NCBI GenBank assembly: GCA_018712785.1
Contig: DVGK01000125.1
Coordinates: forward strand, 1-54,823
Length of the DNA: 54,823 bases
Direction of reading: 5' to 3'
Source: Candidatus Choladousia intestinavium
GTDB lineage: Bacteria > Bacillota > Clostridia > Lachnospirales > Lachnospiraceae
Shown here: one piece after another, positions 516-5,185 of the stretch
How the letters are laid out: each line of letters begins with the position of its first letter
Position numbering within the stretch: position 1 is the stretch's first letter
Program-made: the position numbers and the translations under genes
The notes under the pieces: generated by a model
What the model was told of the DNA's origin: nothing
The model's input: the letters and a program-made list of their open reading frames with translations, nothing else
Database searches by the model: none

Positions 516-2267
516 TCAACCGTTTTCTGTGAAGGCTTCCTCACCCGGCATTTTCCAGGCCGAATGGTCTGTATGAAGAAGCTTGTGGGACAGATGAGAC
601 AGCGGTTCTCCCAAATAGTCCTCATAGCATTTTTTAATAGAAGGATTCTCATGGGAGAAGCGGAGATGGTTCTGCTTATCCAAACCGTAAAGCACCTCAC
701 ATCTCTCTCCGGCCAGCTCCTGTCCATCCTGAATCGGCTGTCCGCCTCCGCCGGCACATCCGCCGGGACATGCCATGATCTCCACGAAATGATAGCTGAC
801 TTCTCCCTTTCGGATGGCTTTCATAAGCTTCCTGGTATTTCCAAGTCCGCTGGCCACAGCTACCTTCAGGTTCTGTCCCGCCAGATTGAATTCAGCCTCC
901 TTCCATCCATCCATTCCCCTGACCTTCTTAAAGGAATCCGGATCCGGGTTCCTTCCGGTTACAAAATAGTAGGCGGATCGCAGAGCTGCCTCCATTACTC
1001 CTCCTGTGGCTCCAAAAATCACTCCTGCTCCGGTGCCGACTCCCAAAGGCATATCGAATTCTTCTTCTTCCAAATCCTTCAGATTGATGTTCTCTGCCCG
1101 GATCAGACGATCTACCTCTCTTGTGGTCAGGACAAAATCCACATCCTGTCCTGCTCCAGCATCATTCATCACAGGTATCTCACACTCATGCTTTTTTGCT
1201 ACACAAGGCATGATGGATACAGAACAGATTCTGGAAGCATCCACATTCAGAAGCTTGGCGTAGTAGGACTTGGCAATAGCCCCGAACATCTGCTGAGGAG
1301 ACTTGGCAGAAGAAAGCTGCCCTGCCATATCCGGATACTGAGACTTCATAAAGCGCACCCAGCCGGGGCAGCAGGAAGTAAACATGGGGAACACCGCCTT
1401 CTCCGGGTTTTTTACTTTTTCCAGGAACTCGCTGGCTTCCTCCATAATTGTCAGATCCGCGCTGAAGGTAGTATCAAAGATATAGTCAAATCCAATCCTT
1501 CTTAAGGCTGCTACCAGACGTTTTACCGTGGCATACTCTCTGGAAAGTCCCAGACTCTCTCCCCAGGCTGCCCGGACTGCAGGAGCCACCTGCACCACTG
1601 TAATCTTATCCGGATCCGCCAGAGCGTCAAAGGCTTTCTGGAGATCGTCCCTCTCTCTGAGAGCTCCTACCGGGCAGTGGGTGATACACTGGCCGCAGAG
1701 GGCACAGTCCGCCTCAGTAATCTTCCGGTTGCCCGATACATCTACAGTGGCTCTGGACCCTGTTCCTGCCACATCCCAGATGTTCAGGCTCTGTACTTTA
1801 TCACAGACCTGGATGCAGCGCATACATTTAATACATTTCTTTGCGTCCCGGATCAGAGGAAAATCCATAGGCCATTTGGATTTTGGAAGGTCTCTCTCAA
1901 AGGAAATCTCCAGAATCCCCAGGTCATTGGCGATCTTCTGAAGCTTACAGTTCCCGCTGCGCACGCAGGTAGCGCACTGACAGTCATGCTGGGACAGAAT
2001 CAGTTCCACATTGTTCCGACGGCTCTCTCTGACCTTGGGACTGTTAGTATAAATCACCATTCCGTCCACAACGATATTATTGCAGGCCGTAACCAGCTTC
2101 GCGTAGCCTTCCACCTCTACCACACAGACACGGCAGGCTCCGATTTCATTTAAGTCTTTAAGATAGCAGAGGGTGAAAATAGGAAAACCGGCCTGGGCAG
2201 CCGCATCCAGAATCCTGGTCCCTTCTTTTACCTGAATCGTCTTTCCGTTAATTGTCACATTTACCAT
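516..2267 (-). CDS. hydA: [FeFe] hydrogenase, catalytic subunit (HydA-type)
   Basis: This 583-residue group A [FeFe] hydrogenase interconverts H2 with protons and electrons. The N-terminus has a [2Fe-2S] domain (Cys34, 45, 48, 62), a His-ligated [4Fe-4S] site (His94, Cys98, 101, 107) and a two-cluster ferredoxin domain (Cys145-155 and Cys188-198). The H-cluster motifs are complete: TSCCPGW near 298, MPCVAKKHE near 353 and MACPGGCAGGGGQP near 498. The start is ATG 2267, just overlapping the end of the upstream oxidoreductase, with AGGAGG 12 nt before it. A longer frame to 2324 lies inside the upstream gene and was not used. Size and clusters match HydA of multimeric NAD(P)-linked or bifurcating hydrogenases. 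No NuoE-like or complete NuoF-like partner is encoded nearby, and the maturases HydEFG are not in the window. Confidence 0.93.
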   Translation of the reverse strand: MVNVTINGKTIQVKEGTRILDAAAQAGFPIFTLCYLKDLNEIGACRVCVVEVEGYAKLVTACNNIVVDGMVIYTNSPKVRESRRNNVELILSQHDCQCATCVRSGNCKLQKIANDLGILEISFERDLPKSKWPMDFPLIRDAKKCIKCMRCIQVCDKVQSLNIWDVAGTGSRATVDVSGNRKITEADCALCGQCITHCPVGALRERDDLQKAFDALADPDKITVVQVAPAVRAAWGESLGLSREYATVKRLVAALRRIGFDYIFDTTFSADLTIMEEASEFLEKVKNPEKAVFPMFTSCCPGWVRFMKSQYPDMAGQLSSAKSPQQMFGAIAKSYYAKLLNVDASRICSVSIMPCVAKKHECEIPVMNDAGAGQDVDFVLTTREVDRLIRAENINLKDLEEEEFDMPLGVGTGAGVIFGATGGVMEAALRSAYYFVTGRNPDPDSFKKVRGMDGWKEAEFNLAGQNLKVAVASGLGNTRKLMKAIRKGEVSYHFVEIMACPGGCAGGGGQPIQDGQELAGERCEVLYGLDKQNHLRFSHENPSIKKCYEDYLGEPLSHLSHKLLHTDHSAWKMPGEEAFTENG

Positions 2268-4099
2268 TTCTCTACTCTGCCTCCTTTCAGGACACCAAAC
2301 CCAAAATGATCGCAGCGCAGGCATCTTCCGGCCTCCTGTTTTGCTTCCTCACAGGTAAGTCCGCATTCGATCATTTCGAAATCCTTCGCTCTTTCTGAAG
2401 GCTGTCTCTCCTTCATATTCACTCTGGCGCAGCTCTTTCTGTCATTCAGGCGCACCTCCGGTATTTCCACATCCGTGGAGATCACATGATGGTAGCCAAG
2501 ATATTCATCTATGTTCGCTGCCGCCACTTTACCGGCCGCAATGGCGCGGATCACGGTAGCAGGACCTGTTACACAGTCTCCACCCGCAAAAACTCCGGTG
2601 AGATCCTTTGTATTAATTCCGCTCCAGCTTAGAGCGTCAATTACGCCTCTCTTCACAGGAATTCCCTGTTTTTCAAATGCTTTGGACTCAATTCCCTGTC
2701 CCACGGCTACGATAACCATATCGCAGGGAAGCCGCACCGGCTCCTGAGAAGAATCCATAGGAACAGGACGCCCGTTTTTCACCGGCCCGATAATCTGAGG
2801 TTTTACCCACAGGGCGGCTACCTTCCCTTCCGAATCCTTTTCAATTCTCAGAGGAGCGTGGAGATCCAGAAGCTCACATCCCTCCTGTACGGCACCTTCT
2901 ACCTCTTCCGGCATAGCCGTCATGTCCACCGCCCGGCGGCGGTAAGCAATGGAAAGCCGCTTCGCTCCCAGACGGATGGCTGAACGCGCCACATCCATGG
3001 CGACATTTCCTCCGCCAATCACTACGATCTCTTTTCCTGTGTAATCCGGCATCTCGCCGTCTCCGATTCCCCGAAGCATCTCCACGGCGGAGATCACGCC
3101 CTGGGCGTCTTCCCCTTCAATGCCGATTTTCCTGTCTGTATGGGCGCCGATGGCAATATACACCGCGTCATACTCTTCTCTCAGATCCCGGATATTTGGA
3201 TTTTCTCCTACGGTAACCTCTGTTTTCACCTGGATGCCCAGATCTATAATCTGTCGGATCTCCTGATCCAGCTCCTTTCTTGGCAGGCGATAGTTTGGAA
3301 TGCCGTACCGCAGCATACCGCCCAGGTGCTTTCTCTGCTCAAAAATCGTCACCTGGTGTCCCATCAGCGTGAGATAGTAAGCGGCGCTGATTCCGCCGGG
3401 GCCTCCGCCGATTACAGCCACTTTCTTTCCTGTGGAAGCAGCGGGCAGAGGATGAGGCACCTCACCTGCATGATCCACGGCAAATCTTTTCAGTCCGCGG
3501 ATATTCACCGGGTCGTCCATCATAGTTCTGCGGCACCGCACTTCACAGGGATGCTCACAGATCAGCCCACAGACTGCCGGAAGAGGATTATCCTTGCGGA
3601 TCAGGCGCACCGCGTCCTGATACCGGCCCTCCGCAACCAGAGCAATATATCCCGGTATATCTACCCCTGCCGGGCACTGGGAAACGCAGGGCACCGGCTG
3701 ATTCAGCTCCAGTTTGCACCTTCCCCTTAAAATATGTTCTTCAAAATCATCCCGGAAGCCTTTGATCCCCTTCAGCACCATCTTGGCAGCCTCATAGCCG
3801 ATGGCACAGTCGGCAGAATAAAAAATATTTTTTGCTGTCTTTTCAATTAAATCAATGGTCTCAAGAGAGGCCTCCCCATCCAGCACATCCTCCATTAGTT
3901 TCCCAAGCTGGCCAAGCCCCACCCGGCAGGGAACACATTTCCCACAGGACTGCGCATGGCACATCTTTAAAAAAGAAGCTGCGAGATCCACCGGACAGAG
4001 TCCCGGGGGACTTGCGCTGATGCGCCGCTCCAGATCCTTGTAGAGTTCTTCAACCGTTGTCTGAGCTTTGTTCTGCGTAATAATACTCAATCTGCTCAT
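2261..4099 (-). CDS. NAD(P)H oxidoreductase: NuoF C-terminal FeS domain fused to a GltD-like flavoprotein
   Basis: This 612-residue fusion likely passes electrons between NAD(P)H and the hydrogenase encoded next to it. Residues about 40-125 resemble the C-terminal iron-sulfur domain of NuoF/HydB (SCGKCVPCRVG at 51-61, further Cys98). The rest resembles GltD/NfnB-type NADPH oxidoreductases: an FeS-binding region (CVSQCPAGVDIPGY near 138; CGLICEHPCEVRC near 177), an FAD fold (VIGGGPGG at 229) and a second nucleotide site (VIGGGNVAMD). The C-terminus has CLRCD. The start is ATG 4099 with AGGAGG 7 nt upstream; the longer frame to 4228 runs through the riboswitch and is rejected. The gene overlaps hydA by 7 bp, which argues for one complex. 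The FMN domain of a true HydB is missing. Whether the partner is NADH or NADPH cannot be read from sequence. Confidence 0.83.
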   Translation of the reverse strand: MSRLSIITQNKAQTTVEELYKDLERRISASPPGLCPVDLAASFLKMCHAQSCGKCVPCRVGLGQLGKLMEDVLDGEASLETIDLIEKTAKNIFYSADCAIGYEAAKMVLKGIKGFRDDFEEHILRGRCKLELNQPVPCVSQCPAGVDIPGYIALVAEGRYQDAVRLIRKDNPLPAVCGLICEHPCEVRCRRTMMDDPVNIRGLKRFAVDHAGEVPHPLPAASTGKKVAVIGGGPGGISAAYYLTLMGHQVTIFEQRKHLGGMLRYGIPNYRLPRKELDQEIRQIIDLGIQVKTEVTVGENPNIRDLREEYDAVYIAIGAHTDRKIGIEGEDAQGVISAVEMLRGIGDGEMPDYTGKEIVVIGGGNVAMDVARSAIRLGAKRLSIAYRRRAVDMTAMPEEVEGAVQEGCELLDLHAPLRIEKDSEGKVAALWVKPQIIGPVKNGRPVPMDSSQEPVRLPCDMVIVAVGQGIESKAFEKQGIPVKRGVIDALSWSGINTKDLTGVFAGGDCVTGPATVIRAIAAGKVAAANIDEYLGYHHVISTDVEIPEVRLNDRKSCARVNMKERQPSERAKDFEMIECGLTCEEAKQEAGRCLRCDHFGFGVLKGGRVEKW

Positions 4100-4142
4100 C
4101 CATGTTCCTCCTCGTTCTGACTGAAAATCTTTTGCGTAACTC

Positions 4143-4175
4143 AAAAAGGCAGTATCTGCTCTCACAAATACTGCC
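4143..4175 (-). terminator. intrinsic terminator of the ZTP riboswitch (expression platform)
   Basis: On the minus strand an 8-bp stem GGCAGTAT/ATACTGCC (arms at 4175-4168 and 4155-4148) is followed directly by TTTTTG. The 5' arm starts inside the CTGGGC end of the aptamer. Folding the ligand-bound aptamer would therefore compete with terminator formation, the usual design of a ZTP on-switch. It lies 44 nt before the start of the oxidoreductase gene. Confidence 0.85.
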
Positions 4176-4255
4176 CAGACGGTCGGCATACTCCCGTTCT
4201 CCCACTGCACGGTGTTAATCCACCTCAATAATCCGTCAGCAATGAAAGACCGTTA
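4173..4255 (-). promoter_or_regulatory. ZTP/ZMP riboswitch (pfl motif)
   Basis: The minus-strand leader carries the two conserved halves of the pfl/ZTP aptamer. The 5' half has CTGACGG and a GGTG/CACC hairpin (loop GATTAA). The 3' half has a GGGAG segment and GCCGACCGTCTGGGC. The GACGG of the first half (4237-4233) can pair with CCGTC of the second (4182-4178), the pseudoknot expected for this class. In published examples the pairing is GGCG with CGCC, so the change here keeps pairing. The switch senses ZMP/ZTP, which builds up when 10-formyl-THF is short, and turns expression on. It follows a sigma-A promoter and overlaps a terminator. Position fits its known link to one-carbon genes, but the genes controlled here are a hydrogenase pair. 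Confidence 0.8.
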
Positions 4256-4268
4256 ATATCACACAATC

Positions 4269-4297
4269 ATCATAACACACATCAAATTCAGGGTCAA
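4269..4297 (-). promoter_or_regulatory. sigma-A promoter for the oxidoreductase-hydrogenase operon, with inverted repeat on the -35
   Basis: The -35 TTGACC (4297-4292), a 17-bp spacer and the -10 TATGAT (4274-4269) form a near-consensus promoter. Transcription should start near 4262, just before the ZTP aptamer. The -35 is one arm of the inverted repeat GGTCAA-N6-TTGACC (4309-4292), which could be an operator or a weak folD-end hairpin. The promoter means the hydrogenase pair can be expressed separately from the upstream Wood-Ljungdahl genes. Confidence 0.82.
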
Positions 4298-4330
4298 GTT
4301 TTTTTGACCGCTTATTCTTTTTGAAGATTC

Positions 4331-5185
4331 TTACAGTCCGGCTTTCTTAGCCGCTGCCTCTACCACGTGGCTTACCAGAACGGAAGTGGTCACGCTGCCT
4401 ACTCCTCCCGGAACCGGTGTGATGGCCTCTACAATCGGTTCCACCGCTGCATAGTCTACATCACCGCAGAGTTTTCCTTCCGCGTTCACATTGATTCCCA
4501 CATCAATCACAATCTGACCCGGTTTCACATACTCGGCGCCTACCACGCCTGCCCGGCCTGCCGCTACCAGAAGAATATCTGCTTCTCTGGTAACTGAGGG
4601 CATATCCACAGTTCTGGTGTGGCACACGGTGACAGTTGCGTTCTTCTTAATCAGCATCATGGCCGCAGGCTTCCCTACCACCAGGCTTCTTCCGATGACT
4701 ACGGCTTTCTTGCCGGTGCAGTCGATTCCATAGTGATCCAGAATCTCCATACATGCCTGAGGCGTACAGGGCGGGAATCCGATTGCTTTTCCTGTAAAAA
4801 CTCCGGACATGGAGCCGTCTGTCATACAGTCCACATCTTTGGCAGGATCCAGAGCATTTTCAATTAGATTCTGATCCAAATGCTTGGGAAGAGGACGGAA
4901 TAAAAGCACTCCGTGAATGGCATCGTCTTTATTCACCTGATCGATCACTTTCAGCAGCTCTTCCTGAGAAACGTCCGCCGGAAGCAGAAATTTCTTGTAG
5001 GCAACTCCCAGAGTCTCACATCTCTTGGTTGCTCCTCTCTCATAGGAAAGATCGCTCTCATTCTCTCCTACCCGGATAATTCCAAGAGTAGGCTTTACGC
5101 CTTTCTCTTCCAGTGCGGCTGCCTTAGCCTTGATTCTCTCATTTAAAGCGGCATTTACTTCTTTGCCCAGTAACTGTTTTGCCAT
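4331..5185 (-). CDS. folD: methylene-tetrahydrofolate dehydrogenase / methenyl-THF cyclohydrolase
   Basis: FolD (284 residues) catalyses NAD(P)-dependent reduction of methenyl-THF to methylene-THF in the methyl branch. It can also have cyclohydrolase activity. Family motifs seen are the catalytic region SYERGATKRCETLG with the general-base Lys within KRC, GVLLFRPLPKHLD, the nucleotide site VIGRSLVVGKPAAMML and the C-terminal TPVPGGVGSVTTSVL. The classical YVxxKxK and QLPLP signatures are altered (YERGATK, RPLPK). With a separate FchA next door, this copy may act mainly as the dehydrogenase; that is inference. The start is ATG 5185, 6 nt after AAAGGAG; a GTG at 5203 sits on the wrong side of that site. 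It is the last gene before the ZTP-riboswitch promoter. Confidence 0.93.
   Translation of the reverse strand: MAKQLLGKEVNAALNERIKAKAAALEEKGVKPTLGIIRVGENESDLSYERGATKRCETLGVAYKKFLLPADVSQEELLKVIDQVNKDDAIHGVLLFRPLPKHLDQNLIENALDPAKDVDCMTDGSMSGVFTGKAIGFPPCTPQACMEILDHYGIDCTGKKAVVIGRSLVVGKPAAMMLIKKNATVTVCHTRTVDMPSVTREADILLVAAGRAGVVGAEYVKPGQIVIDVGINVNAEGKLCGDVDYAAVEPIVEAITPVPGGVGSVTTSVLVSHVVEAAAKKAGL

Follow-up and report, generated by a model that had tools for sequence, protein, structure and literature searches.

Riboswitches of the ZMP/ZTP class (Rfam RF01750), named after phosphates of 5-aminoimidazole-4-carboxamide riboside (AICAR), most commonly precede purH, fhs, pfl, glyA and folD (PMC2864571). 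Tandem arrangements of a ZTP aptamer with a tetrahydrofolate (THF) aptamer are already known (PMC9481103). Among [FeFe] hydrogenases, group A2 of HydDB is glutamate-synthase-linked, with its role listed as undetermined, and its rule places a GltD-type gene downstream of the catalytic subunit and excludes NuoF (PMC5037454). Citations here and below refer to excerpts of the papers; excerpts of PMC11338639, PMC12304844, PMC5393176, PMC5640608 and PMC10482914 were also consulted. In this study we analysed the window, the whole 54,823-nucleotide (nt) stretch of contig DVGK01000125.1 from Candidatus Choladousia intestinavium (GCA_018712785.1), which carries a ZTP riboswitch before a GltD-like oxidoreductase gene and the [FeFe] hydrogenase gene hydA. 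The best explanation, which we regard as quite probable, is a ZMP/ZTP-sensing transcriptional ON riboswitch that would govern the gltD-like/hydA operon. The RNA class is known, and the hydrogenase target is new as far as we searched: no published case of a ZTP switch on a hydrogenase was found in the open-licence literature, a scope outside which the gene lists of Kim et al. 2015 lie.

Anatomy of the riboswitch

The RF01750 model matched 4253–4166 (−) over its complete length (model positions 1–86) with 45.9 bits against a gathering score of 39 (E = 2.3 × 10−4 in the 54.8-kb window), and 45.9 bits were obtained again in three further scans. A preliminary description had proposed a ZTP riboswitch here and had named a sub-threshold score as the finding that would speak against it; the score lies above the threshold. 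The leader contains the following elements:

4269–4297 (−): sigma-70-like promoter, TTGACC-17-TATGAT with TG before the −10 (promoter scan of 4050–4450)
About 4262 (−): predicted transcription start, placed from the promoter, about 9 nt before the aptamer
4166–4253 (−): full-length ZMP/ZTP riboswitch aptamer (RF01750)
4233–4237 (−): pseudoknot 5′ strand GACGG (RF01750 alignment and covariation)
4178–4182 (−): pseudoknot 3′ strand CCGTC, in the P3 loop (RF01750 alignment and covariation)
4176–4177 (−): U and G after the pseudoknot strand (invariant in 14/14 aptamers)
4171–4175 (−): P3 3′ strand within the terminator 5′ arm (folding)
4147–4176 (−): intrinsic terminator with a 13-pair stem, a 4-nt loop and a T-run (terminator scan and folding)
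4107–4113 (−): ribosome-binding site GAGGAGG (sequence)

All positions of the pseudoknot (4237–4233 with 4182–4178) are paired. By position, in a correspondence of our own, the U and G at 4176–4177 would be the counterparts of the ligand contacts U94 and G95 described for the C. beijerinckii ZTP switch (PMC10687018). The region 4050–4450 contained two promoter-like sites (shuffled mean 0.5) and two terminator-like sites (shuffled mean 0.2), the second of each lying on the opposite strand. About 45 nt separate the terminator end from the start of the GltD-like gene. The preliminary description had already reported a strong promoter, the pfl/ZTP aptamer with its GACGG/CCGTC pseudoknot and a terminator overlapping the aptamer end; all were recovered, and its coordinates, strand and spacing were correct. 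The Rfam scan reported no THF aptamer in the window, and the hydrogenase switch is a single ZTP aptamer. By every sequence test run, 4253–4166 (−) is a genuine ZTP riboswitch and an ordinary member of its class.

In the predicted folds, the aptamer and the terminator are mutually exclusive because the terminator 5′ arm contains the P3 3′ strand. This anatomy, together with the known mechanism of the class, points to the ON direction. Without ligand, the terminator would take the P3 3′ strand and transcription would halt before the hydrogenase genes. A shortage of 10-formyl-THF would let AICAR phosphates (ZMP/ZTP) accumulate and stabilise P3 and the pseudoknot, as judged from the C. beijerinckii ZTP switch (PMC10687018), so that the terminator could not nucleate and readthrough would follow. 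A tandem ZTP system before moeA was predicted to be an OFF switch (PMC9481103), but the same direction is extremely improbable here: in each of the two carrier lineages described below, the T-run hairpin is built with the P3 strand of the aptamer itself, and no competing antiterminator was seen.

Covariation and conserved core

Fourteen distinct aptamers were compared on the structure of the window's own Rfam alignment, an origin that favours this structure over the slid controls. With the pseudoknot included, 83.9% of cells were paired, against at most 44.8% when the structure was slid. The covariation score was 0.373 against at most 0.139 when slid, and none of 500 shuffles scored as high. 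Changes on both sides were found in 14/26 pairs (2/500 shuffles as high), and the observed number of further pair types was reached by 15/500 shuffles. The pseudoknot was paired in 97.1% of cells with 3/5 pairs changed on both sides, in the variants GACGG/CCGTC, GATGG/CCATC, GACGT/ACGTC and GGCGA/TCGCC, and P1 showed double changes in 9/10 pairs. Pairing was weaker in P2 (80% of cells), in the two pairs between P1 and P2 (75%) and in P3 (68.6%), whose two outer pairs are poorly conserved. The CTGGGC core, including the ligand-contact U and G in L3, was invariant in 14/14 aptamers, and a hairpin overlapping P3 was present in 15/15 folded units.

The operon and its enzyme

Two genes follow the switch:

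2261–4099 (−): GltD-like FAD/NAD(P)H oxidoreductase with an N-terminal NuoF-type 4Fe-4S tail, 612 amino acids (Pfam and PDB matches)
516–2267 (−): [FeFe] hydrogenase large subunit hydA with NuoG-like N-terminal Fe-S domains (Pfam, NCBIfam and PDB)

The start of hydA (ATG at 2267) lies inside the end of the GltD-like gene, and this 7-nt overlap makes a single operon most likely. Pfam assigned a NuoF-type 4Fe-4S tail, a GltD-type Fe-S domain and Pyr_redox_2 to the GltD-like protein; only the Fe-S tail of NuoF was matched, the part binding flavin mononucleotide (FMN) being absent, and the operon has no NuoE gene. A YRR stretch common to this protein and the alignments of its PDB matches is, we assume, part of an NADPH site. 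The closest solved structures are NfnA, 9bov (molybdopterin oxidoreductase), 8oh5_C (StnC-type) and a subunit of dihydropyrimidine dehydrogenase, and the matching region of StnC has been described as a GltD domain that binds NADPH. The protein also contains a GxGxxA motif, for which a role in NADP(H) binding has been proposed (PMC7483475).

HydA scored 487.3 bits against the TIGR02512 cut-off of 405.95 and is a group A [FeFe] hydrogenase. It contains the H-cluster motifs TSCCPGW, MPCVAKK and MACPGGCAGGGG. Its two best PDB matches are HydA1 of electron-bifurcating complexes. Since HydA also exceeded the cut-off of the NADH-dependent NCBIfam family FeFe_hydrog_A6, with 776.4 against 765 bits, NADH instead of NADPH is possible; we regard NADPH as the likelier partner. 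Judged from its domains, the hydrogenase most likely consists of two subunits and shuttles electrons between H2 and NADPH, lacking the FMN site of the bifurcating hydrogenases; the electrons would pass between NADPH, the GltD flavin adenine dinucleotide (FAD), the Fe-S chain and the H-cluster.

Recurrence in related genomes

Relatives were searched in a named-locus sample (80 GltD-like loci kept from at least 542 relatives) and in a family sample of 200 genomes, with the GltD-like gene called at E ≤ 1e-100. Most carriers are metagenome-assembled genomes (MAGs), and scans over more than 40 genomes at once used stricter filters, with which weak sites were lost. An upstream ZTP site above the Rfam cut-off was found in 12/80 named loci, namely L093, L096, L103, L104, L106, L107, L108, L117, L159, L161 and L163 by the locus scan and L105 through its genome G212; three more loci had a weaker site. 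L096 and L064 were taken as one record, as were L104 and L067. L117, still counted among the 12, is from the same MAG as L092 yet has the leader of L103 in the printed stretch, and is therefore probably contamination. Among the 12, L104 is from Blautia sp. An81, a genome without MAG label that carries the aptamer-gltD-hydA unit. The closest relative, L092 ("Candidatus Choladousia intestinigallinarum"), has a GltD-like protein 95% identical to that of the window and also has a ZTP site.

In the family sample, 101/200 genomes had a ZTP site and 67/200 the GltD-like gene. The two adjoined in 5 of the 67 (the window's genome, G090, G095, G105 and G028), and the five GltD-like proteins of highest similarity come from these same genomes. 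Each of the five has matches to carbon monoxide dehydrogenase/acetyl-CoA synthase (CODH/ACS), those of G090 being fragmented.

A promoter scoring at least 9/12 stands just before the aptamer in 14/15 loci, L094 being the exception. The fraction of shuffles as good was 0 to 0.125 for these 14, where the shuffles preserve base composition only and some loci (L103, L105) are near-copies.

In the window, genes for CODH/ACS, fhs, fchA and folD lie upstream on the same strand, and folD directly precedes the element. The element could thus be a non-regulatory relic of the neighbouring folate operon, and the wrecked elements of L072 and L095 show that decay is possible. Such a relic is very improbable. 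The switch was seen beside folD in the window only; tblastn gave no FolD match upstream in the other carriers within the available flank, that of L106 being too short, while promoter, aptamer, terminator, gltD and hydA stay together. The readable upstream genes also differ: judged by their sequence starts, they are presumably aspartate-kinase-like, heavy-metal-ATPase-like, MATE-transporter-like, TatD-like and histidine-ammonia-lyase-like. Transfer RNAs are also among these neighbours. The upstream gene was unreadable in L106, L108 and L159, and one upstream gene is common to L103, L104/L067 and L107, all from Blautia. The covariation over 14 aptamers and a second lineage with the same pairing and a different expression platform argue further against a relic. 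ZTP control of the hydrogenase pair, as first proposed in the preliminary description, is well supported by a unit that recurs across genera and neighbourhoods, by covariation, by its own promoter and by the exclusive terminator.

Weak sites were found with our own model R1 only, in L094 (53.6 bits) and L095 (33.0 bits). The model was built from 14 source sequences that include L094, which matches by construction, and not L095. L072 retains, by eye, only the aptamer 3′ half and the terminator. L094, L095 and L072 look like a graded decay of the gltD-hydA ZTP switch among relatives. The genomes of L094 and L095 had neither an RF01750 nor a CODH/ACS match. A search of 98 sources with this model, covering 78/80 named loci (all except L096 and L117), gave nothing further at E < 0.1.

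Several observations weigh against the favoured explanation. Two carriers lie below the Rfam cut-off (L092 with 35.8 bits and L066/G105 with 35.3 bits), and L094, L095 and L072 had no RF01750 match even at E ≤ 5. With our own model, no site was found in the close L097–L102/L116/L128 group. Because of these three loci and this group, switch control is dispensable. The T-run after the hairpin is interrupted in L106, and HydA stands just above the NADH-dependent A6 cut-off given above. CODH/ACS matches (E ≤ 0.001) were found in 10/12 carrier genomes and 24/38 others, with L117 sharing the genome of L092 and with L094 and L095 placed among the 38; since 24/38 non-carriers have CODH/ACS, many such genomes have the same hydrogenase without the switch. 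A link of the trait to CODH/ACS or acetogenesis is not convincing. In the samples checked, the ZTP-hydrogenase pairing is confined to two lineages, and no other hydrogenase was preceded by a ZTP switch.

A general ZTP-hydrogenase link across Clostridia was also considered and rejected, as neither the 78 class-sample genomes nor the 80 further family-sample genomes compared gave an adjacent pair. The class sample held 291 genomes, 80 with a ZTP site; of the 78 ZTP genomes compared (76 had a TIGR02512 match), 0 had such a hydrogenase in the 10 kb downstream of a ZTP site on its strand. The nearest pair, in G525, lies on opposite strands with 5.3 kb in between. Of the 100 other ZTP genomes in the family sample, 80 showed no adjacent pair among the matches listed (77 had a match); six more were in a separate hydrogenase search and 14 were covered by the GltD search only. 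Contigs and positions were compared by eye in these counts.

Two carrier lineages

The carriers fall into two groups. Clade A comprises the window, Choladousia, Pullilachnospira, Blautia and others, and its terminator starts in the GGGC of P3. Clade B comprises L159, L161 and L163 (GltD 66–67% identical), and its terminator takes in the aptamer 3′ half. A quick GltD tree was made from 68/80 named loci and 8 others, the 12 loci left out including one carrier, L117. In this tree, a single clade of A (with L095) and B was rejected by the approximately unbiased (AU) test (p-AU 1.8e-33), as it was after the addition of the switchless L097 group, which was defined after inspection of the tree (p-AU 3.7e-7). 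As the carriers lie in two GltD lineages with different terminators, two separate recruitments are probably the simplest account; repeated loss may be an alternative.

The nucleotide before CTG is G in 11/11 aptamers of clade A and A in 3/3 of clade B. Of 50 other ZTP switches, 41 have A at this position and 5 have G, while C and T occur in 2 each, a comparison that leans to the consensus because 30 of them come from near the top of a ranked list. L174 and L180, with A and G respectively, stand outside the 50, their downstream gene being unreadable. The five G cases precede fhs (three), a FocA-type formate/nitrite transporter and a DUF1576 membrane protein. Purine-gene switches have A before CTG, and fhs switches vary (A 4, G 3, T 2, C 1). 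This nucleotide gives a hint that clade A resembles a formate-side switch and clade B a purine-side switch.

The same G, with the lower Rfam scores of most clade A members (35 to 59 bits), might indicate a variant aptamer with an altered ligand. We regard this as quite improbable, since the CTGGGC core with its ligand-contact U and G is invariant, the same G occurs before fhs and the FocA-type transporter, which are normal formate-side targets, and the purine-purine step may, by eye, simply become ordinary pairs.

By eye, the usual GA step before CTG is replaced in clade A and in some fhs-type switches, often by bases able to pair with the strand facing them; this looks like a structural subtype of the ZTP class. 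L178 and L187 are G-type ZTP switches before the DUF1576 membrane protein and a formate/nitrite transporter family protein, and the former protein may belong to the one-carbon regulon without having been recognised as such.

Genome context and possible function

The window's genome is 90% complete and, in the RF01750 scan, holds three ZTP sites including the hydrogenase one. The second precedes an IMP-cyclohydrolase-like/AICAR-formyltransferase pair. The third (L002, G000:C50, 1587–1501 and 1377–1281, −) is in tandem with a THF switch and precedes a second fhs. The gltD-linked HydA is the sole group A [FeFe] hydrogenase over the cut-off in this genome, a second match being below it with 156.9 bits. 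Formate dehydrogenase alpha was found in 0/19 genomes, the window's included, with one model (TIGR01591, E ≤ 1e-50), and pyruvate formate-lyase in 12/19, again with the window's. In a published survey, 79% of gut CODH/ACS genomes were without a putative formate dehydrogenase gene.

Without formate dehydrogenase, 10-formyl-THF would depend on formate (from pyruvate or external) or on serine, and ZTP would therefore be a sensible gauge of the redox state of the formyl branch. The preliminary description had suggested a coupling of hydrogen metabolism to the state of the folate branch in this acetogen, with formate limitation as an example of what would make 10-formyl-THF short. Such coupling is a fair inference, as CODH/ACS and pyruvate formate-lyase are present and formate dehydrogenase was not detected; formate limitation is one of several routes to low 10-formyl-THF.

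The most likely purpose, put forward tentatively and at less than even confidence, would be that of a redox valve. During a stall of the formyl-THF branch, the cell would dispose of NADPH for which the methyl branch has no further use; alternatively, NADP+ would be kept for oxidative FolD, which would convert serine-derived methylene-THF to 10-formyl-THF. We are least sure that H2 evolution by GltD-HydA relieves NADPH pressure or drives FolD towards 10-formyl-THF. The opposite logic, in which the cell would express the hydrogenase at low 10-formyl-THF so as to gain NADPH from H2 for folate or biosynthetic steps, seems rather unlikely. The domain make-up permits either direction, and GltD-linked A2 enzymes possibly couple H2 oxidation to NAD reduction according to HydDB (PMC5037454). 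However, a shortage of 10-formyl-THF leaves the reductive branch with less substrate, for which extra reductant is no obvious remedy, and 0/19 genomes showed a formate dehydrogenase for an H2-to-formate route.

A more far-reaching possibility, which we would put below even odds, is that a purine/folate alarmone commands H2 metabolism, with the hydrogenase acting as a one-carbon enzyme and its double capture by ZTP switches marking that function. In gut bacteria with the Wood-Ljungdahl pathway and without formate dehydrogenase, the GltD-linked [FeFe] hydrogenase would balance NADPH so that 10-formyl-THF recovers. It would have been captured once by a formate-side-like switch (fhs, focA) and once by a purine-gene-like switch. 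ZTP control of the hydrogenase would in itself tie H2 metabolism directly to folate chemistry, and it predicts that antifolates, formate supply and purine state alter the H2 output of some gut Lachnospiraceae. As Blautia sp. An81 carries the unit, a direct test of the idea may be feasible.

Cobalamin riboswitch region

The region 1–478 (−) of the window has a cobalamin riboswitch (Rfam) directly 3′ of hydA. The stretch after it contains ACCTCCTT and three CCGCAA motifs, which look like hairpin loops by eye; the contig ends inside this stretch. The same layout occurs in L092:4426–5010, where it precedes a presumably sporulation-like gene, and in L068:12569–11700 (−), where it precedes a NuoE-like gene of a hydrogenase run. 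The region after the cobalamin riboswitch may be a B12-controlled small RNA.

Comparison with known systems

The leader shares with the ZMP/ZTP class (RF01750) the consensus, the pseudoknot, the ligand-contact nucleotides and a terminator that shares P3. It differs in its target, an [FeFe] hydrogenase operon, and clade A has G instead of the usual A before CTG. Tandem ZTP/THF-I switches that precede formyl-THF genes act as an A AND NOT B gate; the window's genome has such a tandem before its second fhs, whereas the hydrogenase leader has one ZTP aptamer. HydA belongs to the same superfamily as that of the electron-bifurcating HydABC (A3), but the operon has a GltD-type flavoprotein in place of NuoE and the FMN/NADH part of NuoF. 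HydA stands next to a GltD-type subunit as in HydDB group A2; here, however, the gene for that subunit lies on the upstream side of hydA and also encodes a NuoF-type 4Fe-4S tail, and NCBIfam assigns A6. The switch would provide a physiological clue to this A2-like hydrogenase type, whose role is listed as undetermined in HydDB. With the Stn and Nfn transhydrogenases the enzyme has the GltD-type NADPH/FAD domain in common, but its partner is a hydrogenase with H-cluster motifs instead of a transhydrogenase module.

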